64,000 nucleotides of DNA, from the NCBI RefSeq assembly GCF_900187105.1, contig NZ_LT906482.1:1922001-1986000 (forward strand). Reading direction: 5' to 3'. Source of the stretch: Eikenella corrodens (GTDB lineage Bacteria > Pseudomonadota > Gammaproteobacteria > Burkholderiales > Neisseriaceae). Positions 16,941 to 57,380 of the stretch are shown here, one piece after another. The translations under genes were made by a program, and so were the position numbers. Within the stretch, counting starts at the first letter, position 1, and every line of letters begins with the position of its first letter. The notes under the pieces are model-generated. The model was not told the DNA's origin. It ran no database searches and worked only from the letters and a program-made list of their open reading frames with translations.

Positions 16941-17010
16941 ACATTAATCTTTACAAGTTACATTGAATTCGTTAGTATTTATATATATTGATTTTGTAAA
17001 TTTAAGCATT

Positions 17011-19798: not shown

Positions 19799-19800
19799 TT

Positions 19801-21843
19801 ATGAATAATACAATTTTTTTCCAAGTACATGAGAATCCAAAATCCAGTTTAGAAAATTTTATCACTTTCTGTAAAAACAAACTTACAGCTTTCGGAAGTA
19901 ATTGTTGGGACAATAATCAATGGAGAGATACCTTTAATCTTCACAACATTCAAGTTCGTTTTTCCACAGATAGGGTTAAATCTACATCCTATCAATATGA
20001 GCCGTTATCTGAACCATTTATTGATTTTGCTAAAGCATACATTCGTTATGTTTATTCTCAGCAGCCAATTCGTCAATTATCACGGCATATGGAATCATTA
20101 CGTATGGTTGAAATGGCTTTATACAATGTAAAAGGTAATTGCGATATATTACAACTCGATAATTTAGTCATTAATGAAGTTGAAACCATTGTATTGAAAA
20201 AATATAAAAAAGATACTAAATCAGTCAATAAATTAGGATATCAACTTGAGAAGTTGTTTGATTTTTGTCGTGAAAATGGTATTACTCCAAATTTGTCTTT
20301 ATGGAATAACCCATATAAACGTCCTAGAGATTTAACGATATTGCTTGATGAAAGAGGAAAAGAATACCGTTCAAGTAAGATGCCAACAGATGAAGAAATG
20401 ATGTTGGTTGCTAAACTCTTTCATGATGCACCAAATTTAGATAAAGAAACTGAGTATTATACAGCAGTTATGGCTCTACTTATGGTTGCTCCATCTCGTT
20501 GTTCTGAGTTGATGTCTTTATCTGTTAATTGCTTAGAATGGGAAGAAGATAGCTTAGGAAATAAGCAATTAGGTATTCGATGGATACCTGCAAAAAACGG
20601 AAAAGAGGGTTTGAAATGGGTTCCTAGTAGTATGCAAGATGTGATTATTGAAGCAGTCAAACGTTTAACAGATATAGGAGCTTTAGCAAGAAAAGCAGCA
20701 AAGTTTGCGGAAGAAAATCCTAACACGGTAATGATATCACCAGATCAAGGTATGCAAGTATCCCATTATTTATCTCAAAAACCTTTAACTGAAATAGAAA
20801 TAGGTAAGGTTTTAGAAATTAATGGAAAGCATGGGATTAAAACTAAGTGGTTTAAAAAGTTAATGAAAGAAAATAGTGGCGTTATAACTCCTAATGTTTT
20901 AGGAAAATACTTATACGAAAAATATACCTCAAAATTCAATTACTGGCCATATATTGATAAAAATAAAAACGTTAAAGCTTCTGAAGTCTTATTATTATTC
21001 AGAGAAAATGAATTTCATAATGCTTTTCTCCCTAAAAAGTTCTCTTTTTTATTACCGACAGTAAATCTTATTAATGATAGATTCTGCTATTCTGATACAC
21101 GTCCTAAAACATCATTATGGGAAAAGCATTGTATAACAACTTCGAAAGGGGAGTTTGTTAGATTACTATCACACAATGCAAGGCATTGGTTAAGTACAAA
21201 AGCTGAGAGAGGTGGAATGGATGAATTAACTTTAGCGAACTGGGCAGGGAGGGCTAGAATTGCAGATAATAAAGCTTATGATCACAGGACAGAAGAAGAA
21301 AAAAGTGAGGCAGTCCGGGATTTGTTAATTCCTGAGGATATCTCAATATTAGATAAAATACATTTAAATCTTCCAGTTACATATGAGGACGTAGGGAAAG
21401 ATGGAGTGGGAATCACAACAATAACAGAAATAGGCATTTGTGAGCATGATTATGCAATGTCGCCATGTTCTCGCCATGGGGATTGTGAAACATGTAAAGA
21501 ACTTATTTGTATTAAAGGATTAGAATCATCTTTAGAAATATTAAAACATAGAGAAATTCAGCTTACAGAGCAAATTAATAAAGCAAAAGAACACCATAAA
21601 TTAGGAGCTTTTGGTGCAGATCGTTGGATAAGTAACCTAGGGTGGAGATTGGCGCATATAAGAACCAAAATTGCATTCTTGGAGAATAGTGAAATTTCAA
21701 ATGGTACACTATTACGAGTACCTGACGAATATGATCCTTCACCAGTTAAGCTGACTTTATTGGAAAAAGGAATGAATATAGATGTTAAAAAGGCAGAAAC
21801 GGCTAAACTAGATGATGATTTATATAGGTTAATGGAGATGTAG
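19801..21843 (+). CDS. Tyrosine recombinase C of the trio (TnpB-like)
   Basis: 680 residues, the size of Tn554 TnpB-type recombinases. The C-terminal catalytic part has Arg in SRCSELMSL (about residue 232), HNARHWLS (about 457-464) and Tyr in NKAYDHRT (about 492). Where the second catalytic His is usual, the motif reads NWAGRARIAD. A cysteine cluster (CEHDYAMSPCSRHGDCETC) follows and may bind zinc. A long coiled-coil-like helix ends the protein. It lies 1 bp before the small fourth gene. Confidence 0.85.
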   Translation: MNNTIFFQVHENPKSSLENFITFCKNKLTAFGSNCWDNNQWRDTFNLHNIQVRFSTDRVKSTSYQYEPLSEPFIDFAKAYIRYVYSQQPIRQLSRHMESLRMVEMALYNVKGNCDILQLDNLVINEVETIVLKKYKKDTKSVNKLGYQLEKLFDFCRENGITPNLSLWNNPYKRPRDLTILLDERGKEYRSSKMPTDEEMMLVAKLFHDAPNLDKETEYYTAVMALLMVAPSRCSELMSLSVNCLEWEEDSLGNKQLGIRWIPAKNGKEGLKWVPSSMQDVIIEAVKRLTDIGALARKAAKFAEENPNTVMISPDQGMQVSHYLSQKPLTEIEIGKVLEINGKHGIKTKWFKKLMKENSGVITPNVLGKYLYEKYTSKFNYWPYIDKNKNVKASEVLLLFRENEFHNAFLPKKFSFLLPTVNLINDRFCYSDTRPKTSLWEKHCITTSKGEFVRLLSHNARHWLSTKAERGGMDELTLANWAGRARIADNKAYDHRTEEEKSEAVRDLLIPEDISILDKIHLNLPVTYEDVGKDGVGITTITEIGICEHDYAMSPCSRHGDCETCKELICIKGLESSLEILKHREIQLTEQINKAKEHHKLGAFGADRWISNLGWRLAHIRTKIAFLENSEISNGTLLRVPDEYDPSPVKLTLLEKGMNIDVKKAETAKLDDDLYRLMEM

Positions 21844-21844
21844 T

Positions 21845-22255
21845 ATGCCTAAAATTCTTATTACAGAAGAAAATTTGGAAGATATCATCATGTTAATTAA
21901 GACCTGGGAGGGGAAGTTAACATGGAATTTATTTTGCTCTAAAGTTGCAGAGTTATTGAATATTAAGAGTATTGAGAGGCAGTCACTGGCTAATTATCCT
22001 GATATACAAAAAGCCTTTAGCCAACAGAAGCAAAAAATAAAAGAAGATGCAAAAAAAGAACCAGTACCAAATGTAACGATGGATTATTTGCTAAAACAAG
22101 TTAATAATTTGAAGGCTCAGGTACAACTCTTGGAAGAAATTAATGAGCGATATAAACAGCAATTTATTGTATGGCAATATAATGCATATATGCATGGAAT
22201 GACACAAGATACACTAAATAAACCTCTTATTGCTGTTAACCGGCAGCATAGATAA
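21845..22255 (+). CDS. Small coiled-coil protein (TnpC-like position)
   Basis: 136 residues, Lys/Gln-rich. It has an N-terminal helix-turn-helix-like region (LTWNLFCSKVAELLNIKSIERQS) and a coiled coil (about 75-115: DYLLKQVNNLKAQVQLLEEINE). Its size, position after a TnpB-like recombinase and coiled coil parallel Tn554 TnpC, an accessory factor that orients insertion. Function here is inferred from context only. Confidence 0.65.
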   Translation: MPKILITEENLEDIIMLIKTWEGKLTWNLFCSKVAELLNIKSIERQSLANYPDIQKAFSQQKQKIKEDAKKEPVPNVTMDYLLKQVNNLKAQVQLLEEINERYKQQFIVWQYNAYMHGMTQDTLNKPLIAVNRQHR

Positions 22256-22434: not shown

Positions 22435-23673
22435 TTATTTTATGATTTTAGGAACAATTTTTCCAGTTGTATTATTCATACGGTACTGATTGATTGTGCC
22501 GTTAATAATATATTCTGCAGCTTTTTCTATTACATCCAATTCGACATCGAACCATTCGTGCGGGATGTAGATTTTTCCATTCTTTCCAATCAAACGAATA
22601 TTCACTCTTTGCGCAGCAAAGAAAGCATGTAATAAACGCTCGAATGTATGAGGATTGATGTTGCGGCATTCAAACGACAATACGGGTACCACTTTGCTTT
22701 CTAAAAAAGCTGTATCGTTTTCGGCATCAGCAATTCGCGCCTCCACAGTCCCTGTGGTAAAACCGATTTTGTACAAATTTCTATATGTGGCAAATTCCGG
22801 TTTAGGTTGAAGCAGGCGGACGACATAAAGTTGTCCTGTCACCAAGTCCTGTGGGGAGTTGGCAGTCAGGATATCAGGTAATAATTCTGCACTACTCAGC
22901 ATAATTTTTTTACCATTTCCATCTTTATAGACAGCGCGGGCGAGTGAACGGGTCAGGATGTTGGATTCCGTCCCGTTTTCATAAATAACGCGCAACCGTC
23001 TGTTTCCTCTTGTACTTTTCCTGTCTTCCGTCTCTGCAAAATCAGCGACGTAACACAAAGCTCCGTGTAGTAGGAACACATCGCCCGGCTGCAGGAAGGT
23101 TTCCGTTTTTAGGCGTTCGAAGTGGGCTTCGCCGTGTTTGAGCATATGGTGGATCTGCTTAAACCAAGCTTCAAACCGCCAAAAATCTGTACACGGTTTT
23201 CGTACTGCATTGTTTTCATCCTCATAGGGAGATCCATTTGCTGCCCGCTGCGGGATATGTTCCATCCGGAAAATATCCGTATTGCCCACGTCGAGCAGGT
23301 TTAAATCGTCATTGTTGAAGATGTCTTCCAGCGTAACCACATTTTCAGCTTTGCAGCATTCCGTTTTTTCAGACGGCCTTAGCAAATTGAGCGTATCGTA
23401 TTGTCGGAGGGTTTCACAATGCTGTTTGTTGTTCAGCAAGGCTTGCCATTTCCTATCTAAAATTTTCTCATCCAAATTTCCATCATTGTTCGGCAAACGT
23501 CCATGTCGTCTGAAAAACGATTCGACTTCTTTGAATGTTTGCAAAACCATTGCATTTTCATCGGCTTTGGGTGCAATCGGTTTGACATCGGCAAGCAGGC
23601 CTAAATCATCGTGATTGAAAATATCGTCCAAGCTGATGATTATGGAATCAACGCGCATACCTTTTAGCAACAT
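22435..23673 (-). CDS. GIY-YIG (T5orf172-type) nuclease partner of the SF2 helicase
   Basis: 412 residues. The C-terminal domain (about 265-385) has GIY-YIG-like features: LYVVRL, YKIGFTTGTVEARI with the conserved Arg, and Glu in HTFERLLHAFF. It resembles T5orf172/MUG113 nucleases. The N-terminus contains SLDDIFNHDDLGLL and again TLEDIFNNDDLNLL about 100 residues later, an internal repeat. Between them, FFRRHGRLPNNDGNLDEK resembles a motif at the C-terminus of the helicase. The gene starts 2 bp after the helicase stop, so the two form one operon, probably a restriction or defence pair. Confidence 0.78.
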   Translation of the reverse strand: MLLKGMRVDSIIISLDDIFNHDDLGLLADVKPIAPKADENAMVLQTFKEVESFFRRHGRLPNNDGNLDEKILDRKWQALLNNKQHCETLRQYDTLNLLRPSEKTECCKAENVVTLEDIFNNDDLNLLDVGNTDIFRMEHIPQRAANGSPYEDENNAVRKPCTDFWRFEAWFKQIHHMLKHGEAHFERLKTETFLQPGDVFLLHGALCYVADFAETEDRKSTRGNRRLRVIYENGTESNILTRSLARAVYKDGNGKKIMLSSAELLPDILTANSPQDLVTGQLYVVRLLQPKPEFATYRNLYKIGFTTGTVEARIADAENDTAFLESKVVPVLSFECRNINPHTFERLLHAFFAAQRVNIRLIGKNGKIYIPHEWFDVELDVIEKAAEYIINGTINQYRMNNTTGKIVPKIIK

Positions 23674-23675
23674 AT

Positions 23676-25814
23676 TCAGCCCCTTGCCATACGTTCCGCT
23701 TTTTGGCGGCGGATATAGATTAAGGCCTCGCCCATGCGTTTTTCCAAGGGGTCGTCTGAATCTTTGTCAGGCATCCGATTGTTGTTGCGGACAAATTCAT
23801 TGATACGCGGCCACAGCATAGCGGCTTCATCTTCCGTCATTTGAATGCGGTCTGCCTGTACATAATCCTGAATCGCTTTCAACAGCGGCGCGTCCACATT
23901 TTTGGACAAGACTTCATATGCGTCTCTGAAAGGATTGACTTCGCGGATTAAATCCACATTCAACCTGTCTACATTGATAAATTTTTCGCCGACTTTGATA
24001 AAACGGTTGTCAGCAGTTTTGACTTCACCTGTTTGCGGGTTTTTGATTTGCGCATTGTCAGGTAAATCACGTTCCCTGACGGTTTCTTCGACGGAATAAC
24101 TCTGTCCAGCTTCTTGCAACTTAACCGTATCGACAAAAAAATCTCCTTGTCTGATATAGGTTTTTTCGCCTTCGATAAGCGCGTTGTCGGGCAAATCCTT
24201 GCCGTCTTTGATGCCGCCGCCCTGGGTTACCGCCATTTTGGTCAGTGTCCCTTGCACGATTTGGTCTTGCTCTTCTGCCGACAGCTCGGGATAACGGCAG
24301 GCAACAATTTTCGGCAGGGCGGTTTCATTGACGGCAGAGGCAGGCGTGTCTTCCTGAATATAGCGTTTGGCATTTTGCGTATCCTGTACCAACGCAGCGA
24401 TAAGGTCGTCTGAATCCTTATTCAGAATATCGACGACTTTTTTAGAGGCGGGCAGCGTCGTATCGTCGATAAGCACATCCCCCGGATTGGGTGTTTCTCC
24501 TGGTTTCATGTCCGAACGTCGGCGGAACGTGATATTGGGTGCCAATACCTGCTCCATCAGCAACGACAGCGTAATCGCCTTCAAAAGATTATTGACCGAC
24601 ACTTGGACATCTTCATCTGCCGCATCGGGCTGCGCAATCAGATTGGTAAATTGAGCATGGGTTTTGCCCTCGCAATCCCGGGTGGCGCGACCGATAATTT
24701 GGACGACTTCCGTCATCGAGCTGCGGTAGCCTATGGTCAGTACATGCTCGCAATAAGGCCAGTCGAACCCCTCCTTCGCCATACCCAGCGCAACAATAAT
24801 ATCCATATCATCGCGTGATTTGATATTGCGTAAATATGCCTGGATTAAAGAACGGTCGGATGTTTTACGGTCGTCCACCAAGTCCGCCAGTTTCAGCAGC
24901 CTGCCGTCATGGGCTTTGACCGTGATGATGCCTGTTTCGCGGTCTTTGTCCACAAATTCGCCCAAGGTGTCGATGATGTGGTCGACAGCCGAATACTTAT
25001 CGACCGCCGCTTCGCCCGAATTGACGTTGGGAATATGGATAATCGTCTTTTTCGACGGATCGAGCACTTCACCCAAAGCATCGAGATAGCGGCCTTGGTA
25101 GAAGTGGTAGCCCAATCCCAGAGATTTCAAATATCGGTAGCCGTTGAGTTGTTCGTAGTAGGTGTAAGTTACTTTTTCAAACTTGGCTTCGTCTTCTTCA
25201 CTCAAAATCGGCACGGCGTCGCCTCGGAAGTAAGAGCCGGTCATGGCGATAATATGAGCTGAGGAGTTGTTCATGATTTCGTCCAAGACTGCGCCCAAGC
25301 GGTTGTTTACTTCCGCAGAAACATGATGAAACTCGTCAATTGCCACCAGCGTATCATTAAATGCCCCGACATCTGCGAGTTTGTCGAAAGCAAAGCGGAA
25401 AGTCGCATGGGTGCAGACCAAAACTTGGTCGTTGCCGCGCATAAAGCGGATAAAGGCATCCACTTTGCCTTGGTCTTTATCGTCGCCGCTGCCGGTGCAG
25501 AGATTGTTTTCCGGCTTGACGCGCCAATCGGCAAAAAAGCCGTGTTTCGCCAATTCGGTATCGGCAAACGAGCCGCCGATGGACATTTCGGGTACGGCGA
25601 TAATCGCTTTTTTGATGCCTTGATGGGCCAGCTTGTCTAAAGCCAAAAACATCAGCGCGCGGGATTTGCCTGAGGCGGGCGGCGCTTTGAGCAGCAGATA
25701 TTGCGCGTCGCGTTTGGCAAACGCTTTGGCCTGCATTTCGCGCATGCCCATATTGTTTGGTTTGGTGCTGTTGCCGGTTTGTCCGTATTCGACGTGGAGC
25801 AGGGGGATAGTCAA
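23676..25814 (-). CDS. SF2 DEAD/DEAH-like helicase, restriction-type
   Basis: 712 residues. Walker A APPASGKS at 44-51, DExH-type motif II IDEFHH (about 165), motif III MTGSYF and motif VI QIIGRATR indicate a functional SF2 motor. After the motor comes a duplicated segment: DLPDNALIEG...FVDTVKL, then DLPDNAQIKN...FINVDRL. The last 60 residues contain EFVRNNNRMPDKDSDD, similar to the partner nuclease. Neisserial uptake sequences (AGGTCGTCTGAA at 24,403-24,414) lie inside the gene, indicating descent from a Neisseria-type donor. It is followed without gap by the GIY-YIG gene and preceded by a methylase remnant. Confidence 0.82.
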   Translation of the reverse strand: MTIPLLHVEYGQTGNSTKPNNMGMREMQAKAFAKRDAQYLLLKAPPASGKSRALMFLALDKLAHQGIKKAIIAVPEMSIGGSFADTELAKHGFFADWRVKPENNLCTGSGDDKDQGKVDAFIRFMRGNDQVLVCTHATFRFAFDKLADVGAFNDTLVAIDEFHHVSAEVNNRLGAVLDEIMNNSSAHIIAMTGSYFRGDAVPILSEEDEAKFEKVTYTYYEQLNGYRYLKSLGLGYHFYQGRYLDALGEVLDPSKKTIIHIPNVNSGEAAVDKYSAVDHIIDTLGEFVDKDRETGIITVKAHDGRLLKLADLVDDRKTSDRSLIQAYLRNIKSRDDMDIIVALGMAKEGFDWPYCEHVLTIGYRSSMTEVVQIIGRATRDCEGKTHAQFTNLIAQPDAADEDVQVSVNNLLKAITLSLLMEQVLAPNITFRRRSDMKPGETPNPGDVLIDDTTLPASKKVVDILNKDSDDLIAALVQDTQNAKRYIQEDTPASAVNETALPKIVACRYPELSAEEQDQIVQGTLTKMAVTQGGGIKDGKDLPDNALIEGEKTYIRQGDFFVDTVKLQEAGQSYSVEETVRERDLPDNAQIKNPQTGEVKTADNRFIKVGEKFINVDRLNVDLIREVNPFRDAYEVLSKNVDAPLLKAIQDYVQADRIQMTEDEAAMLWPRINEFVRNNNRMPDKDSDDPLEKRMGEALIYIRRQKAERMARG

Positions 25815-34815: not shown

Positions 34816-34885
34816 TAACTGTTCCTTTATATTTTGTTAATCAATAAATTACCTACCATTTGTTATGGATCCAAAGGAACAGTTA
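34816..34885. promoter_or_regulatory. 13-bp inverted repeat around the divergent promoter
   Basis: TAACTGTTCCTTT (34,816-34,828) and AAAGGAACAGTTA (34,873-34,885) are perfect complements 44 bp apart. Each covers the 5' end region of one of the two divergent genes: the left arm the HTH gene's ribosome-binding site, the right arm the recombinase's first codons. It looks like a paired operator. Confidence 0.65.
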
Positions 34886-36430
34886 TCAAAACAGCAAAAA
34901 GCGGTTCTGTATATCCGTATGTCCACGGATCATCAGAAATATTCGCCTGATAACCAGAAAGCTTTTTTGCTGGAATATGCCAATAAGAACGGACTGGCCG
35001 TTGTTGGTGAATTTATTGACGAAGGCATCAGCGGAGTCGTGACGCAAAAACGGTATCAGTTCTTGAACTTAATTGATTTGGTCAGAAGCGGCAAAGCAGA
35101 TTTCGGTCATATTTTGGTTTATGACGCGAGTCGCTGGGGACGCTTTATTGACCCGCAAGAATCTAGTTATTACCAATACCTCTGTCAGCAGCAAAACATC
35201 ATTCTGCACAAATGTGCGGAACCGATTCCAGTGGCAACAGAAGAGTTGGATCCAGTAGTAACAGGTATCATAGATGTATTCCAGCAAACTTCCGCCGGTC
35301 TCTTTAGCAAGGGACTATCAAAGAAGGTTTTTCTCGGACAGGAAAACTTGATCAGGCTCGGTTTTCGACAAGGCGGCTCTGCAGGGTACGGATTGCGCCG
35401 TTTGTTGGTAGACGAGAACAGGCAGCCAAAATTTGAGCTTAAGGCCGGGGAACATAAGAGTATCCAAACCGACAGGGTAATTCTGGTTCCCGGCCCGGAA
35501 CATGAACAGGCCGTTATCCGGAAAATTTACGAGGACTTCATTTACCAAAAAATGAGCGAACAGGCGATAGCTGATGATTTAAACAGACAGCACATTTTGA
35601 CCGACCGTGGCACCTCTTGGACTAGAGGTGTTGTGCATCAAATCCTGATTAACGAAAAATACATCGGCAATAATGTCTGGAACAAAAGCAGCTATTCGCC
35701 CTTCAAACCACATAAAGGCAAGAATGCCTCCGAACAATGGGTACGGGCCAATTCAGTCTTTCAACCCATTGTTTCCACCGTACTGTTCAATGCCGCCCAA
35801 AGCATTATCCATCAAAGAAGCCGGCATTGGAGCAATGAAGAAATGCTGGATAAATTAAAGGAGCTACTCAGAATTAACGGCAAGCTGTCTGGCTTGATCA
35901 TTGATGAAGCCGCAGATTGCCCTTCCAGCAGTATGTTTCGTAGCCGCTTCGGAAGCCTACTTAAGAGCTATCAGGAAGTAGGTTATACACCCAGCCGAGA
36001 CTATCGCTATCTGAAAATCAATCGTGCCTTGAGACGGACTCATGCAGATCTGGTTGAGCAGACGATTGCAGAAATTGAGCGGCTGGGGGGAGCGGTATCC
36101 CGCATTCCGGAAAACGATTTACTCCATATTAATCAGGAGTTTTTTGTTTCTCTAGTGCTGGCACGCTGTCGGATAACCGATGCTGGTACCAAACGCTGGT
36201 TTATACGTTTTGACAGTAGCCTTGCTCCTGATTTGACCATAGCTGTGCGGCTGGATGAAACGGCGGAAAAAATAGTAGATTACTATCTACTTCCTTCCGA
36301 AAAAACCCATTGTGCCAAAGTGAGATTGACGGAACAAAACCCGATTGACTGGGATTGTTATCGCCATAAAGATTTGAGTCGTTTTTTTGCCATGAGTAAA
36401 CGGGTATTGATTAAGGAGGCAATTTTATGA
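34865..36430 (+). CDS. Large serine recombinase
   Basis: 521 residues. The resolvase domain (about 10-160) has the catalytic Ser20 in YIRMSTDHQ, EGISG, and DASRWGR with conserved arginines. A Recombinase domain follows, with EQAIADDLNRQHILTDRG and WTRGVVHQILINEKYIGNNVWNK. The C-terminus is long, but no CxxC zinc-ribbon pair is evident, unlike many phage integrases. It would integrate or excise the element, or act as a transposase. Its last codon overlaps the next gene (ATGA), giving tight coupling to two ParB-like genes. Confidence 0.92.
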   Translation: MDPKEQLSKQQKAVLYIRMSTDHQKYSPDNQKAFLLEYANKNGLAVVGEFIDEGISGVVTQKRYQFLNLIDLVRSGKADFGHILVYDASRWGRFIDPQESSYYQYLCQQQNIILHKCAEPIPVATEELDPVVTGIIDVFQQTSAGLFSKGLSKKVFLGQENLIRLGFRQGGSAGYGLRRLLVDENRQPKFELKAGEHKSIQTDRVILVPGPEHEQAVIRKIYEDFIYQKMSEQAIADDLNRQHILTDRGTSWTRGVVHQILINEKYIGNNVWNKSSYSPFKPHKGKNASEQWVRANSVFQPIVSTVLFNAAQSIIHQRSRHWSNEEMLDKLKELLRINGKLSGLIIDEAADCPSSSMFRSRFGSLLKSYQEVGYTPSRDYRYLKINRALRRTHADLVEQTIAEIERLGGAVSRIPENDLLHINQEFFVSLVLARCRITDAGTKRWFIRFDSSLAPDLTIAVRLDETAEKIVDYYLLPSEKTHCAKVRLTEQNPIDWDCYRHKDLSRFFAMSKRVLIKEAIL

Positions 36431-37320
36431 GGATGGTGATTCAAACACTACCGATCAATCGAATCAAGGTCCTGAATCCACGCAGTAGGAACCCTAAAGT
36501 GTTTAACCAATTGGTCGCCAGCATCGCGGCAGTCGGTCTAAAGCGTCCGATTACCGTTACCAAATCGGAAATATTGGATGGAGAACAATGGTATGGCCTA
36601 TTATGCGGCGAAGGAAGATTGACCGCCTGCCAAGAGCTAGGTGAAGAGTACATACCGTGTCACATTGTGGAGGTTAGTGGTGACGAAGGATTTTTAATCA
36701 GCCTGGCTGAAAATATTGCTAGACGTAAGCACACCAATTTGGAAATACTGTCTGCCATTCGGGTGTTGTATGAACGTGGATATTCCGAAAAAGATATTTC
36801 ACGAAAAATCGGCCTTCATCAAGCATACATACGGGGAATTTTACATTTGTTGCGAGAAGGTGAGGTACGCCTGATTGCAGGCGTAGAAAAAGGCTATTTG
36901 CCGATTGACGTTGCTGTCGATATTTCCCGTGCAAAAGAAAAAGAAGTTCAAACGGCTTTATCCGATCTTTACCAACAACAGAAGCTAAAGCGCGGAGATA
37001 TTGCCAAAATCAGGAGACTGATCCAACAGAGAAAGCGTGATGGTAAAACTTACCACTTCACTCCGAGGCGTAATACACCTATCAATAAGGAGAAGCTACT
37101 TCAAATGTATGAGAATGAGATTAAGCGAAGACAGTTGATGGCAACACAGGCTGAATTTTGCCAACAACAGCTGCTGATCATTCTTTCTGGGTTAAATCGT
37201 TTGTTTGAGGATAATCATTTCAAAACACTGCTTCGGGCAGAGAGAATCGTAGATATGCCTGAGAACCTCAGTAAATGTCTGAGCCATTATAGGGAAACAT
37301 ATATCAATGAATCAGCCTAA
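36427..37320 (+). CDS. ParB/RepB-like protein 1 of the recombinase operon
   Basis: 297 residues. The N-terminal ParB/Srx-type domain has ILDGEQWYGLLCGEGRLTAC, the IPCHIVE strand and SLAENIARRKHTNLE. It is followed by the ParB-type HTH GYSEKDISRKIGLHQAYIRG, and a basic C-terminal region. ParB folds act as CTPase clamps or site-specific DNA binders in plasmid partition. No ParA is encoded nearby. AAGGAGG lies 7 bp before the ATG, which overlaps the recombinase stop. Its role in the element is unknown. Confidence 0.85.
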   Translation: MRMVIQTLPINRIKVLNPRSRNPKVFNQLVASIAAVGLKRPITVTKSEILDGEQWYGLLCGEGRLTACQELGEEYIPCHIVEVSGDEGFLISLAENIARRKHTNLEILSAIRVLYERGYSEKDISRKIGLHQAYIRGILHLLREGEVRLIAGVEKGYLPIDVAVDISRAKEKEVQTALSDLYQQQKLKRGDIAKIRRLIQQRKRDGKTYHFTPRRNTPINKEKLLQMYENEIKRRQLMATQAEFCQQQLLIILSGLNRLFEDNHFKTLLRAERIVDMPENLSKCLSHYRETYINESA

Positions 37321-38206
37321 ACACATCGCTTATGCTTTCCAAGCATCATTGAAGAACATCGCGCTCAAAGATATTCAAACCATGCACCCCTTCCCCGCAG
37401 GGATACGGGAAAGCGTGAAGTTCAAAAGCATCTTGGCCTCAGTAGAGGAAATTGGTGTTATTGAGCCGCTGGCTGTTTATGAAGAAAACGGTAAGTACCT
37501 CTTACTGGACGGTCATCTCCGTCTGCTTGCCTTACAAGAACTAGGAATCGACACGGTAGTATGTCTGCTGTCCACAGACGATGAAGGATTTACCTATAAC
37601 CGGCAAATTAACCGGTTAAGCCCAATTCAGGAATACCGGATGATCAGCCGTGCAATTGGCAAAGGCATATCAAGGGAGAAAATTGCCAAAACCCTGAATA
37701 TCAACTTATCCGGAATCGAAAGCAAGTTGAATTTGCTGAATGATATCGCGCCCGAAGTAGCCGCGAAACTCGCAGACAAGCATCTGGCACAAGATACGTT
37801 TCGGATTCTCCGAAAAATGAAACCCATCCGACAGATGGAAGCTGCAGATATGATGATTGCAGCCAACAAGTTCACCAAGTCCTATGCGGAGATGATCTTG
37901 GTGGCCTCCTCCCAGGAAGACTTGGTTGATCATGCTCAGAAAAAGAAAAAGCACTCGGATAGTCTAGAAAAACTTTCACTGTTGGAACAAGAAATGGACA
38001 GGTTGAAGGAGGACTATACCCGGACAGAGAAAGAAATTAGTGATACCAATCTGTCTTTGATTGTGGCTGGCGGTTATTTAAAAAGATTGTTAGATAACTC
38101 TGCTGTGAAAGAGTTCATCAGCTTGTATTATGCGGACATCCTAACCGCATTAGATACGGTTTCCCAGCAATTACAACAAGCCCCGATGTCTCTTGAGAAA
38201 GAGTAA
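37307..38206 (+). CDS. ParB/RepB-like protein 2 of the recombinase operon
   Basis: 299 residues, homologous in layout to the preceding protein but clearly diverged. It has an N-terminal ParB-type domain (YLLLDGHLRLLALQELG) and an HTH (GISREKIAKTLNINLSGIES). A RepB-like helical C-terminus with a coiled coil follows (about 215-245). In place of ENIAR it reads NRQINRLSPIQEYRM. It overlaps gene 1 by 14 bp, so the three genes form one translationally coupled operon. The pair may form a heterodimer; this is inference. Confidence 0.85.
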   Translation: MNQPKHIAYAFQASLKNIALKDIQTMHPFPAGIRESVKFKSILASVEEIGVIEPLAVYEENGKYLLLDGHLRLLALQELGIDTVVCLLSTDDEGFTYNRQINRLSPIQEYRMISRAIGKGISREKIAKTLNINLSGIESKLNLLNDIAPEVAAKLADKHLAQDTFRILRKMKPIRQMEAADMMIAANKFTKSYAEMILVASSQEDLVDHAQKKKKHSDSLEKLSLLEQEMDRLKEDYTRTEKEISDTNLSLIVAGGYLKRLLDNSAVKEFISLYYADILTALDTVSQQLQQAPMSLEKE

Positions 38207-50254: not shown

Positions 50255-50301
50255 AGGCTACCTGAAAGCATACAAGCTGCTTTTCAGGTAGCCTTTGTTT
50301 T
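50255..50301 (+). terminator. DUS terminator of ylqF and left copy of a 47-bp flanking repeat
   Basis: An eikDUS pair around GCATACAAGCTGC, followed by a T-rich tract. The same 47 bp recur at 56,145-56,191 with one substitution, on the far side of the Dnd-like module. Confidence 0.8.
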
Positions 50302-50326
50302 CTTTGTTTATCGCTTTACCATGTTG

Positions 50327-50803
50327 CTACAGAATCTCAAACAACCTTGCCAATAATACATCCTGCAGTACCAGGCGCGTTTCGGGTTGTAGCAGCAGCC
50401 GCGCGAGCGGCAAATCAAGCTCTACACCTGAAACGGTTTGACGCAGGCTGGATAAAGTCTTCATGCGATTCTTTTGTTCAAATATGTCCGCCATATCGGG
50501 TTTGATGTGGAAATGCCAAAACGGCTCGGTCTTCATATGGTAAAGCGGCATATCGAATTTTTCCTGATGGTAGTCATTCGCTACCCACAGCTGCCATTGT
50601 TTCCGAAACACCATCTGCCATTCAATTAACAATCCGTCAGAAAATTTAATCTGCTCTGTTCTCAAGCTACCTGATGCATATAGAAGACACAGGCTGTACA
50701 GCAAAATAAATTTGTGCGGTGACTGATTTTGCGCATAAGTAAAACTGGTATGCAACCCTCGGAGTTGTTCTGCATATTTCAACAAGACCGGTAAATCTAT
50801 CAT
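50327..50803 (-). CDS. Stand-alone domain similar to the N-terminus of COG3440-type HNH endonucleases
   Basis: 158 residues from the ATG at 50803, which follows GGAGGG and overlaps the regulator's stop (ATGA). The pattern SPHKFILLYSLCLLYASG, FSDGLLIEWQ, MPLYHMKTEPFWHFHIKP, SSLRQTVSGVELDLPLARLL and PETRLVLQDVLLARLF follows the N-terminal recognition domain of HNH restriction-type proteins. The HNH catalytic domain is absent. It may be a DNA-recognition or regulatory subunit of the adjacent Dnd-like module; this role is inferred only. Alternatively it is a truncated nuclease. Confidence 0.6.
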   Translation of the reverse strand: MIDLPVLLKYAEQLRGLHTSFTYAQNQSPHKFILLYSLCLLYASGSLRTEQIKFSDGLLIEWQMVFRKQWQLWVANDYHQEKFDMPLYHMKTEPFWHFHIKPDMADIFEQKNRMKTLSSLRQTVSGVELDLPLARLLLQPETRLVLQDVLLARLFEIL

Positions 50804-51075
50804 ACCGAGCCCTCCTGCAAACCCCGAACTACCTCTGATGCATCCCAATCCAAAGCCCGACAGTATTCGATAAATTCAAATATATCCATCCGTCTGTCAC
50901 CTGTTTCCACTTTTCCTACGAACGAATGCACCACATCCATCCGTTCCGCCAACGCACGTTGTGACAACCCCAAATCCAGGCGTCGCCGGATAAGGAGCTG
51001 TCGCAATTTCGTATGTTCCTTGGAATGAACCGACAGCCGGATGTTCTTCATTGCACCGATTTTAGGTACAATCAT
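50800..51075 (-). CDS. XRE-family HTH regulator of the Dnd-like module
   Basis: 91 residues (or 83 from the ATG at 51051, MKNIRLSVHS). The XRE helix-turn-helix is clear: LIRRRLDLGLSQRALAERMD, then VHSFVGKVETGDRRMDIFEF. It is divergent from dndC and overlaps the next gene by ATGA. Two TGCACC-N7-GGTRCA palindromes lie at its 5' end and in the gap before dndC, so it probably represses both directions. Starting at 51075 would put one palindrome inside the coding region. The start is therefore uncertain. Confidence 0.85.
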   Translation of the reverse strand: MIVPKIGAMKNIRLSVHSKEHTKLRQLLIRRRLDLGLSQRALAERMDVVHSFVGKVETGDRRMDIFEFIEYCRALDWDASEVVRGLQEGSV

Positions 51076-51097
51076 GGATGCACCTGTTTTCGGTGCA
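51052..51097. promoter_or_regulatory. Tandem operator: two TGCACC-N7-GGTRCA palindromes
   Basis: TGCACC-GATTTTA-GGTACA at 51,052-51,070 and TGCACC-TGTTTTC-GGTGCA at 51,079-51,097 have identical spacing and start 27 bp apart. They lie between the divergent XRE regulator and dndC and are probably its binding sites. Confidence 0.75.
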
Positions 51098-51110
51098 AAT
51101 GAGAAAATGT

Positions 51111-52223
51111 ATGAAGGTTATCCCCATAAATACAGCTGATCCGTTTGAGGCTATACGCCAAAATATCACTGAAGAATATTTGAGCGAAACACAGCACTAC
51201 CCTTGGATTGTTACCTTTTCAGGCGGCAAGGACAGTACCCTTGTCGCCCATTTGGTGTTTGACATGCTGCTTTCGCTGCCGCCGATGCTTCGGATGCGGC
51301 AGGTATTTTTCGTGTCCAACGACACGCTGGTGGAAAGTCCGCTGGTGGTGAAACACATGCGCCAATCTTTGGCAGAAATCCTGCGCGCCGCTGAAATTTT
51401 CAGGCTGCCCGTTAGCGGCGAAATTACCGTGCCGAAATTGCAGGACACCTTTTGGACTCTACTCATAGGCAAAGGCTACCCCACGCCTAACCGCTCAATG
51501 CGCTGGTGTACCGATCGCCTGAAAATTCAGCCTACTAGCGGCTACATCCTGCAAAAAGTAAACGAAAATGGCAAAGCCATCATCGTGCTGGGTGTGCGTA
51601 AAGACGAATCCGTCACCCGAAAGGCCAGTATCGAAAACCACCAAAACTTGGAAAACAGCAACCTGACTCCGCACAGCGATCTGAAAAATGCGTTGGTGTA
51701 CCGACCAATTGCCGATTTGAGTACCGACGACGTGTGGGAATTCCTTGCTGCCAACGACCCGCCCTGGGGCGGCACGCACAACGGTTTAATCAAGCTCTAC
51801 CGCGAAGCCGCCGGCGGCGAATGCCCGATTGTGCTGTCGCAGGAAGAAGCCCCCGGTTGCGGCACCAATTCCAGCCGCTTCGGCTGCTGGACGTGCACGG
51901 TGGTCAATAAGGACAAAAGCCTGCAAGGTTTTGTGGATGCGGGGAAAACTGAATTCACACCGTTAATCGAATACCGCGACTGGCTGGTGGACATCCGCAA
52001 CAAACCCGAATACCGCCAGGCCGAACGGCGCAACGGAAAACTCACGTTCAAAGGCGGAAAACACATCCCCGGCCCGTTCACCATCACGGCGCGGCAGGAA
52101 ATGCTGGCGAAGCTGCTGGACGTGCAGGCTGCTTTCGGCGAAGAACTGATTTCGCAGGAAGAAATCGACCTAATCAAGCAGATTTGGACGGAAGATATTT
52201 TGAAACAAGGAGACAGACGATGA
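51111..52223 (+). CDS. dndC: DNA phosphorothioation protein DndC
   Basis: 370 residues of the PAPS-reductase-like ATP-pyrophosphatase family. It has SGGKDST at 37-43 (P-loop), RWCTDRLKI with Cys133, GVRKDES, and Cys250, Cys259 and Cys262 in PGCGTNSSRFGCWTC. The C-x8-C-x2-C spacing plus an earlier Cys is that of the 4Fe-4S site in DndC, which activates DNA for sulfur incorporation. It is shorter than typical DndC. ATG 51111 is chosen; ATG 51078 would run through the second operator. Coupled by ATGA to the next gene. No dndA is present; a chromosomal IscS could supply sulfur. Confidence 0.87.
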   Translation: MKVIPINTADPFEAIRQNITEEYLSETQHYPWIVTFSGGKDSTLVAHLVFDMLLSLPPMLRMRQVFFVSNDTLVESPLVVKHMRQSLAEILRAAEIFRLPVSGEITVPKLQDTFWTLLIGKGYPTPNRSMRWCTDRLKIQPTSGYILQKVNENGKAIIVLGVRKDESVTRKASIENHQNLENSNLTPHSDLKNALVYRPIADLSTDDVWEFLAANDPPWGGTHNGLIKLYREAAGGECPIVLSQEEAPGCGTNSSRFGCWTCTVVNKDKSLQGFVDAGKTEFTPLIEYRDWLVDIRNKPEYRQAERRNGKLTFKGGKHIPGPFTITARQEMLAKLLDVQAAFGEELISQEEIDLIKQIWTEDILKQGDRR

Positions 52224-52444
52224 ACCCGGAAACCAAAGCACAAATTGCCGACCTGCTGCTGTGGCGCGACCCCGACGCGCGCTATTTGCTGGAAGCGGCC
52301 GCCAAAAAACACAATATCAAAATAGAAGCGGCGGCGGAACTTCTTGCTTGGGCGCGCCAGGTGCGGCGCAAGGGTGACAAATACGGCGGCATGAAGCAGA
52401 AGCTGGACAAAATCTTCGAACAACAGGATTTATGGGGGAAATAA
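52220..52444 (+). CDS. Small protein between dndC and dndD
   Basis: 74 residues, starting at an ATG that overlaps the dndC stop (ATGA) with AAGGAG upstream. It is highly charged and helical: KAQIADLLLWRDPDARYLLE, AAAKKHNIKIEAAAELLAWA. No motif is recognised. Its fixed place and tight spacing (dndD starts 1 bp after its stop) make it a genuine member of the module, perhaps a DndC or DndD partner. Confidence 0.7.
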   Translation: MNPETKAQIADLLLWRDPDARYLLEAAAKKHNIKIEAAAELLAWARQVRRKGDKYGGMKQKLDKIFEQQDLWGK

Positions 52445-52445
52445 G

Positions 52446-54497
52446 GTGTATATCAAACGGATAAAACTGAAAAATTTCAAATCCTACGCCGAAGCCGAAT
52501 TTGAATTTCCCCCGCCAGAAAAAGGGCGAAACCTGATTTTGGTCGGGGCGGAAAACGGGCACGGCAAAACCACGCTGCTGGAAGCGATTTACCTGTGCCT
52601 GTACGACAAAGACGCGATTGCCAATTTCCAACGCGCCGGACTGGGTGACAGCAAATTCAAATACCATGACTTCATCAGCCAGTCGCTGTACAAGGAGGCC
52701 GCCACCCAAATGGCCAGATCCTACGAAATGGTGCTGGAAATGGATTTAATGAAAACCGGCGCATTCGACGAACAGGGCATCCGCATCGTCCGCAAATGGC
52801 ATTTCGACCATCACGGCCGTTATCGGGAAGAACATAACGAACTGATGCTGTATTCGTCCGACAAAGGCAGCCTGCAACCCGTTTCGGGCGAAGAAATCCA
52901 AGATTATTTAGAAGATTACGGCCTGCCGTCCGAATATTCCACGTTTTTCTTTTTTGACGGGGAACAGCTAGTCAATATCGCCAAACAGTTCGGCGCAGGC
53001 GGCTGGATGAGCGGTGCGCTGAACAAACTTTTAGGCATCGACCTGCTTAAAGCCTTGCAGGCAGACGTGAAGAAATACGGGCAGGAACTATACAGCGAAA
53101 AGGCGGGTGGCCGGCAGAAAGAGCAGCTTGCCGAAGCCGAACGCCGTTTTCAGACGGCCTCCGAAGAATTGGCGCGCCACACCGAAACCCTGCAACAGTG
53201 GCAGCGGCAGAAGCAGGAAGCTGAAGCCAGGCAGGACAATTTGCAGACGCGGTTGCGGGGCGCGGGCAGCACGCAGCATTCCAAAGAGCTGATTGCCCAA
53301 ATCGAACAGTGTGAAGCCGAAACCGCCCGACTGAACCAAAGCATTCAGGCAGCCTTGTTGGCCTTGCCGCTTGCCCTGCTACCTGAAAGCGATATCGCCG
53401 CCCTGAAAACGCAGCTTCACGGTGATTACCGCCGCCTGCTGCACGAGCAGGGCAAAGAGCAGAACGCGCACCGGTTGGAAGAATTCTGGCAGGCGTTTTC
53501 CACCAATCCCAACACGCTGGAACTACTGACGCCGAAAATCCTGAAAGACGAACTGCTCAAACGTGCTCTGAACGAATCATGGAACGTTCTGTTCGACAAA
53601 CTGCCGCCAGATGCGTCTGACCCCATGCAGCACAATTACTTGGACGATGCAGGCTTTCAGGCGGCCTCCGACAACATTGCCCGCATCACATCGCCCGACA
53701 ACGACCTCGGCAGCCTGAACAAAGAGAAAAACCGTCAGGAAACCAAACTGGCCGAGCTGAAACGCCGCTATGAACAGCAGGAAGACAGCCTTGCCGATTC
53801 CGACCGTCTGCGCGAAGAATTGGAGCGCGTTCAGAAAGAGCTGGCCGAAGCTAACCAAAAACTCGGTGGTGCGCAAAACAGCATCGAGCGCAGCCAAACC
53901 GAAGCCAACCGCTTGAAAACCGACTGGGAAACCCTGCAACAGGCACTGATAGACAGCCTGCCCAAACAGCAAAAAGCCGAACGCGCCGAAGCCGTGTGCC
54001 GCATGATAGACGACTTGGCCGTGCAACTGCGCCGCAGCAAACTGGACGCATTTCGTAAAACCGTAAGCAGCCTGCACAAGAAAATCGCCCATGACAAACA
54101 AATCGGCGACATCGAAATCGGCGAAGACGGCAGCCTGTCTCTGTACAGCCAAAACGGCACGGCCATCAACTTCCAGCCGCTTTCGCACGGAGAAAAGAAA
54201 ATACTGGTGCTGACCCTGATTGCCGCGCTGGCCGAAATCACCGACTACCAAGTCCCCTTCGTGGTCGATACCCCGCTCACATCGTTGGACACGCGCCATT
54301 GCAACAATCTGGTGCAATACTGGATGAATTTGAACCGCCAAGTGATTATTCTGGTGCAAAGTGCCGAAATCGGATCCGAAGCCTATCAAAAGCTCAACGC
54401 ACAGGGGCGTATCGGCAAAAGCTACCTTATCCGTTCGCAAAGCCTGCAAGGTGGCGGAAAACGTGCCACCGTTACCCCGCACGCCTATTTTGAATAA
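52446..54497 (+). CDS. dndD: DNA phosphorothioation protein DndD (SMC-like ATPase)
   Basis: 683 residues, GTG start. Walker A GAENGHGKT at 34-42. Long coiled coils follow (about 215-310 and 420-500, e.g. EELARHTETLQQWQRQKQEA). The ABC signature is LSHGEKK at about 577-583, and Walker B is VPFVVDTPLTSLD at about 602-614. This is the Rad50/SMC-like layout of DndD, which provides ATPase and DNA-nicking functions in phosphorothioation. No zinc-hook CxxC is seen at the hinge. The gene follows the 74-aa gene immediately and precedes the DndE-FtsK fusion by 11 bp. Confidence 0.88.
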   Translation: MYIKRIKLKNFKSYAEAEFEFPPPEKGRNLILVGAENGHGKTTLLEAIYLCLYDKDAIANFQRAGLGDSKFKYHDFISQSLYKEAATQMARSYEMVLEMDLMKTGAFDEQGIRIVRKWHFDHHGRYREEHNELMLYSSDKGSLQPVSGEEIQDYLEDYGLPSEYSTFFFFDGEQLVNIAKQFGAGGWMSGALNKLLGIDLLKALQADVKKYGQELYSEKAGGRQKEQLAEAERRFQTASEELARHTETLQQWQRQKQEAEARQDNLQTRLRGAGSTQHSKELIAQIEQCEAETARLNQSIQAALLALPLALLPESDIAALKTQLHGDYRRLLHEQGKEQNAHRLEEFWQAFSTNPNTLELLTPKILKDELLKRALNESWNVLFDKLPPDASDPMQHNYLDDAGFQAASDNIARITSPDNDLGSLNKEKNRQETKLAELKRRYEQQEDSLADSDRLREELERVQKELAEANQKLGGAQNSIERSQTEANRLKTDWETLQQALIDSLPKQQKAERAEAVCRMIDDLAVQLRRSKLDAFRKTVSSLHKKIAHDKQIGDIEIGEDGSLSLYSQNGTAINFQPLSHGEKKILVLTLIAALAEITDYQVPFVVDTPLTSLDTRHCNNLVQYWMNLNRQVIILVQSAEIGSEAYQKLNAQGRIGKSYLIRSQSLQGGGKRATVTPHAYFE

Positions 54498-54508
54498 AGG
54501 GAAACGCC

Positions 54509-56128
54509 ATGTACGAATTGGACGACGACAAAATCTGCAATGACAAATACTGGGTAACGTTGACTGAAAACACCCACATCAAATCCAGCGGCGAAGCGGC
54601 CAAAATTCTGAAACGGCTCGAAAGCGACGGCGTGCTGCCTAAAATGCAGAACCATGAATGGGCACGGCTGTGCATCGCCTTCTGCTTTGCCAAAACCAAA
54701 AATATCAAAGATTGGGAACAGAAACCCGGCATGGACGGTGGTTTGGAAATCGCATCGTTCAACACCTGCTTTAATCAAAACGGCAAAAAAGGCGAAGAAA
54801 AATTTTGGCTAGCCTACATCAGCCAGCGCATGTTTGACGAAGCGCCAGAACGGAAATTCACCAAAAAACACTTGTTTGCCTATATCCAACTGGCGTGGCA
54901 CAACGGCGCGAAACTGTTGGAAGGGCGTTACCGGAAAGCCTTGGACTACTGCGACGGCAGCATCGTGGAAGCCAAAAAGATATTCTTTGACGAACTGGCC
55001 GGCCTGGCGGCGCAACACAGGGGCAGTGGTTCAGACGGTGCTGCCCCGGCCGTTTCAGGCAGTCTGCACTCCCCAAATCCTGTTTCAAACGGCATCGATT
55101 TGAGATCCTCTCCCGCCGCCAATCGGGAAATGGGCGAGAAAATCGTTGCCGCATTGCAGGGTATGGGCAAAGGAGTGAAAACCATAACATTTTTGGGACA
55201 GGGTGTGCGCTACGATAGCTATCTCATCCAATTTACCGACTATGCCGACTGGGACAAACTATACGACAGATTTTGTTCGGCAATGGGAATTCCCAAAGAC
55301 AGCAGCACCGTACGCACGGAACAGTATGCGGGACTACCGCACGCCCATGAAATCAAAATACTCCGCCATGAAAATACCTGGCACAAACTGGAAAAGAATG
55401 ATTTTGAATCGGCACTGAAACAATATCGCGGCGATTTCCTGATACCGTGTTGTATCGGTGCTGATGAGGACGGCAAGGCTGTTTTTGCCGATTTATATGA
55501 AGCGCCGCATATATTGGTGGGTGGCACGACGAGGATGGGCAAATCCGTGCTGGTTTCATCCATCATGAAAAGCCTTTTTGAGCTCAACCGTCAGGATAGT
55601 TTTGAAGCGGCGATATTTGATCCTGCTGCCAACTATTCCGTATTCAAAACCGCACCCAACCTGTGGCAGAGCGAAATACACGGGGAACGCAGTCGGTTTT
55701 TGTCTTTGCTGGAAAACCTTGTAGATGAAATGAACGGGCGGTTGGCACTTTTGCGTGAACACGATGCTGAAAAAATACAGCATCTGCCCGAAGAATATCG
55801 GCCAAAACTCCTCATTGTTTTGCTGGAGGAATTGGCGGCCTTGTTGGACACAGACAAAAATGCCGAAAAACCGATTATCCAAATGCTTCAAGAAGGTGCA
55901 AAAACCGGCATTCATATGCTTTTAGTAACGCAAGAACCCAATTCGCAAACATTCTCGTCCAAACTACTTGCCAATTTGCCCAGTCGGATTGCATTGCGCG
56001 TTGTTAAACCTGGCTCTTCACGCATGATTTTAGGCGAAGGCGGAGCGGAGTATTTAACCAGTAAAGGTGACCACTTAGTCAAATGGAATGGTGGCGCAGC
56101 ACAGTTTTTACACGGGTATAATGTGTAG
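54509..56128 (+). CDS. DndE-like domain fused to an FtsK/HerA-type ATPase
   Basis: 539 residues in two parts. Residues about 15-165 look like DndE: HIKSSGEAAKILKRLES, WARLCIAFCFA, DGGLEIASFNTCF, WLAYISQRMF, LAWHNGAKLLEGR. After a Ser/Gly/Pro linker (about 170-205) comes an FtsK/HerA-like motor with Walker A GGTTRMGKS at 338-346. Walker B LLIVLLEEL is at 434-442 (Glu-Glu instead of Asp-Glu), followed by LLVTQEPNSQ and a substrate-facing SRIALRVVKPGSSRMILG. DndE binds nicked DNA in phosphorothioation; a motor fused to it could scan or translocate DNA. The DndE assignment is by pattern, the motor is clear. Confidence 0.78.
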   Translation: MYELDDDKICNDKYWVTLTENTHIKSSGEAAKILKRLESDGVLPKMQNHEWARLCIAFCFAKTKNIKDWEQKPGMDGGLEIASFNTCFNQNGKKGEEKFWLAYISQRMFDEAPERKFTKKHLFAYIQLAWHNGAKLLEGRYRKALDYCDGSIVEAKKIFFDELAGLAAQHRGSGSDGAAPAVSGSLHSPNPVSNGIDLRSSPAANREMGEKIVAALQGMGKGVKTITFLGQGVRYDSYLIQFTDYADWDKLYDRFCSAMGIPKDSSTVRTEQYAGLPHAHEIKILRHENTWHKLEKNDFESALKQYRGDFLIPCCIGADEDGKAVFADLYEAPHILVGGTTRMGKSVLVSSIMKSLFELNRQDSFEAAIFDPAANYSVFKTAPNLWQSEIHGERSRFLSLLENLVDEMNGRLALLREHDAEKIQHLPEEYRPKLLIVLLEELAALLDTDKNAEKPIIQMLQEGAKTGIHMLLVTQEPNSQTFSSKLLANLPSRIALRVVKPGSSRMILGEGGAEYLTSKGDHLVKWNGGAAQFLHGYNV

Positions 56129-56144
56129 TTAAAGAGATATTAAG

Positions 56145-56191
56145 AGGCTACCTGAAAGCATACAAACTGCTTTTCAGGTAGCCTTTGTTTT
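56145..56191. terminator. DUS terminator and right copy of the 47-bp flanking repeat
   Basis: Same 47 bp as at 50,255-50,301 with one substitution. It ends the Dnd-like operon and lies 15 bp beyond the sspB stop codon on the other strand, so it may terminate both. Confidence 0.8.
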
Positions 56192-56205
56192 GGTTGTGCC
56201 AAGGG

Positions 56206-56610
56206 TTATTTCACCAGCTTCAGGCCTTTGTGTTTGCCGGCGGGTTTGCTGTCTTTGCCGCTGTTTCCCGCTTCGGGTTGGGGCGGGGTGCTGGGTTCGT
56301 AGGGTGTGATATCAAAGTTCATGCCTTCGCCGGTTTCGCGGGCATAGATGGCGCCGATGTGGCCGACCGGAATCCAAATCTCGTGCGCCACGCCGCCGAA
56401 GCGGGCGGTGAAGTTGACCCAGTCGTTATCGATGTGCAGGCCGGCGCAGGCGGTGGCGCCGATATTGAGGATAATTTGGTTGTCTTTCACAAACTGCATG
56501 GGCACGCGGGTATGTTCGTTTACCCATACTTGGATATAGGGAGTGTGGCCTTGGTCGCTGCACCATTCGTGCAAGGCGCGGATGAGGTAGGGTTTAAGGG
56601 TGGGATTCAT
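56206..56610 (-). CDS. sspB: ClpXP protease adaptor SspB
   Basis: 134 residues. SspB binds ssrA-tagged proteins and delivers them to ClpXP. The N-terminal beta domain carries PTLKPYLIRALHEWCSDQGH, TPYIQVWVN and HEIWIPVGHIGAIYARE. A disordered Pro/Lys-rich linker ends in the short ClpX-binding tail GLKLVK. The ATG at 56610 follows AGGA. It is second in the sspA-sspB operon. Confidence 0.93.
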   Translation of the reverse strand: MNPTLKPYLIRALHEWCSDQGHTPYIQVWVNEHTRVPMQFVKDNQIILNIGATACAGLHIDNDWVNFTARFGGVAHEIWIPVGHIGAIYARETGEGMNFDITPYEPSTPPQPEAGNSGKDSKPAGKHKGLKLVK

Positions 56611-56774
56611 GGGCAAGATTCCTGTGTGGCGAAAGGCTACCTGAAAGCATATCGCTAAAATACTTCACTTCCTACGGCGTTGGATAGCCGCCTAGAATGA
56701 AAAATCATGATTTCAGCTAAAAGCCGCTTGTTTAGACAACGCGGAAGCGGTTTCCAAACAAACGGCCTATATGC

Positions 56775-57380
56775 TTAGCGGCGCATGGCTTTTTCGGCGG
56801 CGGTGAGCGCGGCGATAAAGGATTCGCGTTGGAAAATGCGCTCGGCGTATTTCAGGATGGGCGCGGCAGATTTGCCCAGTTTGATGCCGTAGTGGTCGAG
56901 TCGCCACAGCAGGGGGGCGATGGCCACGTCGATCATGGAGAAGTCGTCGCCCAGCACGTATTTGTTTTTGGAGAATGCGGGGGCGAGCAGGGTGAGGCCT
57001 TGGCTGATGGCTTCGCGCGCTTTGGCCTGCTCTTTGGCTGAGGTGTCGGGGCTTTCAAGTTTTTGCACGTGGCTGAACAGCTCTTTTTCCATCCGGAATA
57101 AAACCAGGCGGCCGCGACCGCGCATAACAGGGTCGCCGGGCATGAGCTGCGGGTGTGGGAAGCGTTCGTCGATGTATTCGTTGATGATGTTGGACTCAAA
57201 CAAGATGAGGTCGCGTTCAACCAATACGGGAACTTGGTTGTAGGGGTTCATCACGGAGAGATCTTCGGGTTTGTTGAAGATGTCTACATCTTTGATTTCG
57301 AAATCCATGCCTTTCTCGTATAGCACGAAGCGGCAGCGGTGGCTGAAGGGGCAGGTAATGCCTGAGTATAAAACCATCAT
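56775..57380 (-). CDS. sspA: Stringent starvation protein A (GST-fold)
   Basis: 201 residues with a glutathione-S-transferase fold but, as in other SspA, no catalytic residue for glutathione: LYSGITCPFSHRCRFVLYEK, NPYNQVPVLVERD, NIINEYIDERFPHPQLMP, and a helical C-terminal domain. SspA associates with RNA polymerase in stationary phase and stress. sspB follows after 164 bp. Confidence 0.95.
   Translation of the reverse strand: MMVLYSGITCPFSHRCRFVLYEKGMDFEIKDVDIFNKPEDLSVMNPYNQVPVLVERDLILFESNIINEYIDERFPHPQLMPGDPVMRGRGRLVLFRMEKELFSHVQKLESPDTSAKEQAKAREAISQGLTLLAPAFSKNKYVLGDDFSMIDVAIAPLLWRLDHYGIKLGKSAAPILKYAERIFQRESFIAALTAAEKAMRR

Follow-up and report, generated by a model that had tools for sequence, protein, structure and literature searches.

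We predict that positions 50327–56128 of a 64,000-nucleotide stretch of the Eikenella corrodens genome (hereafter the window) encode a Dnd-type DNA phosphorothioate (PT) writer that has a DndE–FtsK fusion and lacks DndB. The reading we favour, with a probability of roughly 0.6, is that of a horizontally acquired PT writer of the DndE–FtsK-fusion type, serving epigenetic or defence modification without a recognised nuclease in the locus.

Organisation of the locus

The six predicted genes lie within 50327–56128, where an initial annotation of the window had placed them. A divergent pair, encoding an XRE-type regulator and a stand-alone sulfur-binding domain (SBD), faces dndC, the Sp-DndD gene, dndD and the gene for a 539-aa fusion protein. 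The complete unit is wider than the genes themselves and takes in two predicted operators (51051–51098) as well as flanking direct repeats (50255–50307 and 56145–56197). Estimates of dN/dS indicated purifying selection on the SBD, XRE, DndC, DndD, DndE and FtsK, with weaker selection on Sp.

The 53-bp repeat bounds the unit, with its left copy at 50255–50307 and its right copy, 94% identical, at 56145–56197. No other direct repeat in the region reaches 24 bases. Within the repeat, two DNA uptake sequences (AGGCTACCTGAA) in inverted orientation make up a hairpin whose loop differs from the other hairpin loops of the window. This uptake-sequence dialect is that of Eikenella corrodens (PMC12061091). 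It occurs in 53 copies in the window and in none inside the unit, where about 8 would be expected (P about 3e-4, assuming a Poisson distribution). It is plausible that the locus is self-contained and was acquired horizontally, with transformation as the route. None of the relatives checked carries the locus at the upstream GTPase gene, and no clean empty site was obtained because the neighbouring genes differ in these relatives.

Predicted writer genes and sulfur supply

DndC, a PAPS-reductase-like sulfurtransferase (51111–52223, forward strand; longest open reading frame from 51078), was recognised by TIGR03183 (369 bits; cut-off 290) and by PADLOC as DndC (4e-123). In the 370-aa form starting at 51111, the SGGKDST motif is located at residue 37 and the C-x8-C-x2-C cysteines at residue 250, both of which the initial annotation had read correctly. 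The 74-aa protein that it had placed between DndC and DndD (52220–52444, forward strand) is identified as Sp-DndD by Pfam family PF20306, scoring 43.5 bits against a cut-off of 27.2; the probable start, ATG 52220, overlaps dndC in an ATGA. The following gene, dndD (52446–54497, forward strand, GTG start), encodes a DndD-related ABC ATPase. Here the original gene call stands, with PADLOC matches to DndD (5e-81) and PbeC (5e-104) and a TIGR03185 score of 238.2 bits, slightly under the cut-off of 245.85. A motif check of the protein did not find a CxC motif.

The absence of DndA and DndB had also been noted, and was borne out. DndA was not found within the locus; instead, the cysteine desulfurase IscS is encoded elsewhere in the genome (TIGR02006, 770 bits) and is a candidate that can supply the sulfur from its chromosomal position. 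DndB is missing from the locus, and PF14072 gave no match in the whole genome in a search in which the control profiles matched. DndB is often present in Dnd systems but is dispensable for modification.

A DndE fold fused to an FtsK-type motor

The 539-aa protein (54509–56128, forward strand) had been proposed to join a DndE-like domain, at residues 15–165, to an FtsK/HerA motor. Sequence libraries recognised the FtsK half alone (PF01580), and a profile search of the PDB sequences with the DndE half returned no match. In Foldseek searches with a model of the whole protein, the FtsK motor was found at E about 2e-21. Because this motor dominates the fold search and masks the DndE half, the N-terminal 175 aa were modelled separately with AlphaFold, using 12 relatives (pLDDT 85.8). 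The nine best Foldseek matches of this model in the PDB were all DndE structures, 7x4e, 4lrv and 5wtu among them, with probabilities of 0.95–1.00 but weak E-values of 0.01–0.24; the match to 7x4e had a probability of 1.00 and a TMt of 0.77. A profile comparison with hhalign paired the N-terminus with that of a rhizobial fusion protein at 95.7%, and the rhizobial N-terminus itself matches the DndE model TIGR03184.

AlphaFold and Foldseek agree on the proposed architecture, and at the level of predicted structure they confirm residues 1–170 (54509–55018) as a DndE fold and the remainder as an FtsK motor. A flexible linker (residues 171–204; 55019–55120), disordered in the model as indicated by its low pLDDT, leads into the motor domain (residues 205–539; 55121–56128). 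The motor has the Walker A sequence GTTRMGKS. Its activity in the window copy is uncertain, since the Walker B position holds E instead of D and TQEPN stands in place of TQRPD.

Among 369 genomes sampled from the class, we found FtsK or large HerA/FtsK proteins only and no further DndE–FtsK fusion, which suggests that the fusion is rare in this class. Broad surveys reached few distant fusions, and no relatives were found among viral contigs.

Exchange of modules among relatives

To our knowledge, the way in which Dnd systems select the sequences that they modify is not yet settled. We analysed exchange across 11 Neisseriaceae loci, with one genome per species among the relatives. Between the window and genome G027, protein identity is 95% for DndC, 90% for DndD, 98% for DndE and 44% for FtsK. 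Between G027 and G040, the corresponding values are 97, 38, 35 and 98%. Aligned as DNA, G027 and G040 share 98–100% identity across SBD–XRE–DndC to about position 51800 and 100% across FtsK, with only about 50% across Sp–DndD–DndE; their flanks are about 94% identical. The identity steps between these two genomes fall at about 52190, the end of dndC (with a smaller step near 51800), and at about 55130, the end of the linker. The step between the window and G027 lies at about 55070–55090, where the model is disordered. At this end, exchange breakpoints in the relatives are located in or close to the linker, at 55070–55130.

For groupings that were chosen after the identities had been seen, the AU test rejected the window with G027 for FtsK (6.5e-8), and G027 with G040 and G058 for DndD (4e-94) and DndE (5e-36). 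Across the 11 loci, pairwise identities of DndD and DndE were tightly correlated (r=0.97, Mantel p 0.0002); those of DndE and FtsK gave r=0.25 (p 0.05), despite their fusion. As judged from alignments and trees, these patterns show Sp, DndD and DndE to be inherited and exchanged as one set, and the FtsK motor to be an exchangeable part that is no fixed partner of its DndE. The SBD is 66–70% identical between the window and G027, against 90% and more for DndC, and seems to move independently.

According to the main text of PMC10853773, co-evolving DndD–DndE pairs have been proposed to set the PT target, and the exchange pattern that we predict from these loci fits this proposal. Compared with that text and the literature found, the natural exchange of aiming parts and motor parts among related bacteria appears to be new. 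G027 and G040 represent a natural exchange experiment, having a near-identical DndC (5′ part) and FtsK and a different Sp–DndD–DndE. Comparing their PT motifs would directly probe DndD–DndE as the target setter.

XRE regulator and twin operators

The regulator gene (50800–51051, reverse strand; the longest open reading frame reaches 51075) encodes a protein matching HTH_31/HTH_3. Between this gene and dndC, two 21-bp sequences 27 bp apart conform to the pattern TTGCACCNNTTTTAGGTNCAA with at most two mismatches: predicted operator 1, TTGCACCGATTTTAGGTACAA, at 51051–51071, and predicted operator 2, ATGCACCTGTTTTCGGTGCAA, at 51078–51098, both given on the forward strand. They are the sole two matches in the 2.19-Mb genome. 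Operator-like sequences recur at the equivalent position in relatives that carry XRE; L031 has a single visible copy, and the copies of L024 are diverged. When the window was shuffled 100 times, no such sequence arose; because the pattern was defined after the copies had been seen, genome uniqueness and recurrence are the evidence for the operators. The putative twin operators support control by XRE. Scanning the locus for sigma-70 promoters was uninformative, as the result fell below chance.

A sulfur-binding domain without a nuclease

The initial annotation had likened a stand-alone domain to the N-terminus of HNH restriction proteins and paired it with an XRE regulator; both parts of this description were upheld. 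The gene (50327–50803, reverse strand) probably starts at ATG 50803, which gives 158 aa and an ATGA overlap with the stop of the XRE gene; a start at TTG 50848 would give 173 aa. The protein matches the SBD of PDB entry 8h0l (SBDHga1) at 5e-8 as a single sequence and at 3e-24 with a seven-member profile. It carries P-H-K and P-F-W motifs, which correspond, by motif match and not by structural superposition, to H116-R117(K) and P165-F166-W167 of ScoMcrA. These ScoMcrA residues either make up the sulfur pocket or support it (PMC6224610). SBDs nearly always come with an HNH domain (PMC7470945). In the window protein this domain is absent, the sequence stopping right after the SBD, and a profile search with matching controls did not find PF01844 HNH anywhere in the genome.

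With a dN/dS of 0.05–0.10, the SBD looks selected as a protein, though dS is large and near saturation. The gene is intact and of similar length in four related loci (the window, L021, L023 and L071), broken as a pseudogene in L025 and absent from several other related loci. The SBD is therefore not essential; it is an accessory component. A nuclease-free SBD next to a PT writer appears to be new when set against the main text of PMC10853773 and the literature found, and it makes this protein a candidate PT reader other than a restriction enzyme. We infer that the predicted domain reads PT for feedback, or acts as a shield.

SBD proteins without HNH and with no adjoining dnd genes were also observed in other Neisseria-family genomes: L072 (8049–8642), L073 (8430–9002), L074 (8600–9070), L075 (8384–8935) and L076 (7505–7855). 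Those of L072 and L076 apparently share a site flanked by transporter permease genes.

Restriction, mechanism and alternative readings

A check of families and neighbours recognised no nuclease in the locus, either in the window or in the Neisseriaceae relatives inspected. No DndF, DndG or DndH genes were recognised at the locus, in agreement with the earlier statement that the usual DndFGH restriction set is missing; TIGR03238 (DndF) was silent in the genome, in a search that produced no control match. According to the main text of PMC10853773, dnd modification loci often lack DndFGH. The initial annotation had further suggested that the fused motor and the HNH-like protein replace the restriction genes. 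This reading as a compact restriction system is only partly supported: the writer–motor fusion and the XRE-paired domain stand, but the HNH-like protein is an SBD only, with no nuclease part and no PF01844 in the genome. A nuclease may act from another part of the genome.

The best support is for nuclease-free writing in which DndE is tethered to a motor. From the motifs and known Dnd biochemistry, IscS would pass sulfur to DndC. Sp, DndD and the DndE domain would form the DNA-scanning, target-choosing unit and would probably set the target, and the FtsK-type motor, flexibly tethered to DndE, would move the writer along duplex DNA or pull DNA through. XRE would bind the twin operators between the divergent transcripts and set expression of the writer. 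The SBD would most likely be a PT reader, not a cutter, which senses or occupies the cell's own PT sites for regulatory feedback or protection. The functions of the SBD and XRE are deduced only from their neighbours and homologues. As a whole, the system would then modify DNA for epigenetic or defence purposes, with no nuclease recognised in the locus.

A fuller version of this scheme is tentative. In it, the PT writer would have a reader built in and aiming parts that can be exchanged: Sp–DndD–DndE would be a portable specificity cassette swapped by natural transformation, and FtsK a second exchangeable part. The SBD, coupled to XRE, would read PT to control the writer, which would close an epigenetic feedback loop based on backbone sulfur.

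The main rival makes the fused motor itself the effector. DndE–FtsK would sense unmodified sites on incoming DNA and block replication, transfer or packaging without cutting. The covalent tie between the motor and a target-recognising domain is consistent with this, as are the PADLOC results for the motor half, in which SspH scores best, and the recurrence of HerA/FtsK domains in defence systems noted in the main text of PMC10853773. An exchangeable motor is also what an arms race would be expected to produce. However, the DndE fused to the motor is part of the writer complex, the Walker B motif is divergent in the window copy and no in-locus nuclease was recognised. We regard an effector motor as possible but doubtful.

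It is unlikely that the lone SBD, instead of regulating the writer, shields PT sites or counters type IV enzymes (SBD-HNH) with which other cells target PT. Its ATGA overlap with XRE and its place in the regulator transcript favour a regulatory link, and the neighbourhoods of the other SBD hosts show no PT writer adjoining the SBD to protect. Yet a pocket motif in a protein without a nuclease would suit a shield, as would the nuclease-free SBDs found in Neisseria genomes without adjacent dnd genes. A decaying remnant, in which the SBD is left over from an SBD-HNH enzyme, the motor is dead and the locus no longer works, is very improbable: the SBD pseudogene in L025, its absence in other loci and the Walker B change in the window motor would agree with decay, but SBD frames are intact and similar in length in four loci, the low SBD dN/dS (with dS near saturation) points to constraint, and the remaining genes except Sp are likewise constrained.

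Relation to known systems

The DndE–FtsK fusion and the dnd genes of this group are already known: the main text of PMC10853773, citing its ref. 24, describes a subset of Dnd modification systems with a DndE–HerA/FtsK fusion (‘clade-3’ HerA/FtsK); plasmid records of Rhizobium phaseoli and Aureimonas annotate dndC-Sp-dndD-‘FtsK’ operons; and a human-microbiome survey of PT genes includes Eikenella corrodens and Neisseria (PMC7464106). As described in the main text of PMC10853773, the fusion subset resembles the window in having one polypeptide that adjoins a DndD-related ABC ATPase. The window differs from that description in adding XRE, the twin operators and a nuclease-free SBD, and in the separate exchange of its DndE and FtsK halves. 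The R. phaseoli and Aureimonas operons share the gene order of the window, and the N-terminus of their ‘FtsK’ matches DndE TIGR03184; unlike the window, they carry DGQHR (DndB-like) and TusA genes. In R. phaseoli, an HNH endonuclease gene occupies the divergent slot that holds XRE–SBD in the window. This gene was considered as an SBD-HNH candidate; HNH alone, and no SBD, was recognised in the protein.

The canonical DndABCDE and DndFGH systems have DndC, DndD, DndE and a cysteine desulfurase in common with the window, which differs in lacking DndB and recognised DndFGH, in the fusion of DndE to a motor and in the position of the desulfurase outside the locus. In C-protein controlled restriction–modification, a small HTH regulator acts with paired operators, and in type I specificity-subunit exchange the specificity part is swapped as a unit and the chemistry part stays. 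The window differs from both in its PT chemistry and in having Sp–DndD–DndE as the exchanged unit; we draw these comparisons as analogies and claim no homology. The SBD-HNH type IV enzymes ScoMcrA, SprMcrA and EcoWI (PMC6224610, PMC7470945) share the P-H-K and P-F-W pocket motifs with the window SBD, which differs in having no HNH nuclease and in adjoining a PT writer with an XRE regulator.

Three further observations concern related operons. The alphaproteobacterial operons end with a TusA-family sulfurtransferase gene (L078, 10200–10436; L079, 10200–10439), the product of which is a possible dedicated sulfur carrier for DndC. L036, a contig labelled as a Bacteroidota MAG, carries a dndC-Sp-dndD-dndE-FtsK operon with a DndC 67% identical to that of the window; it is perhaps mis-binned, or reflects a long transfer. 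A Moraxella osloensis plasmid (L077, 8141–12239) holds a broken copy of the operon, in which dndD is partial and apparent transposase genes interrupt the fusion gene.

Other elements in the window

Adjoining the locus, 56206–57380 encodes SspB and a GST-like protein that is probably SspA. The pair was considered as a PT Ssp system and rejected, PF04386 showing that this SspB is stringent starvation protein B. Further upstream, an island of about 30% GC in the 55–60% GC chromosome adjoins ssb (16963–22255). It encodes a phage-integrase-family recombinase (440 aa) together with unassigned proteins of 315, 680 and 136 aa, and is possibly a multi-recombinase integrative element. At 22435–25814, a 712-aa DEAD/ResIII-type helicase lies next to a 412-aa T5orf172/MUG113 (GIY-YIG-like) protein; PADLOC matches were weak, and the two form a possible unrecognised defence pair. 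A lower-GC stretch at 34865–38206 encodes a large serine recombinase and, after it, two RepB/ParB-like proteins.
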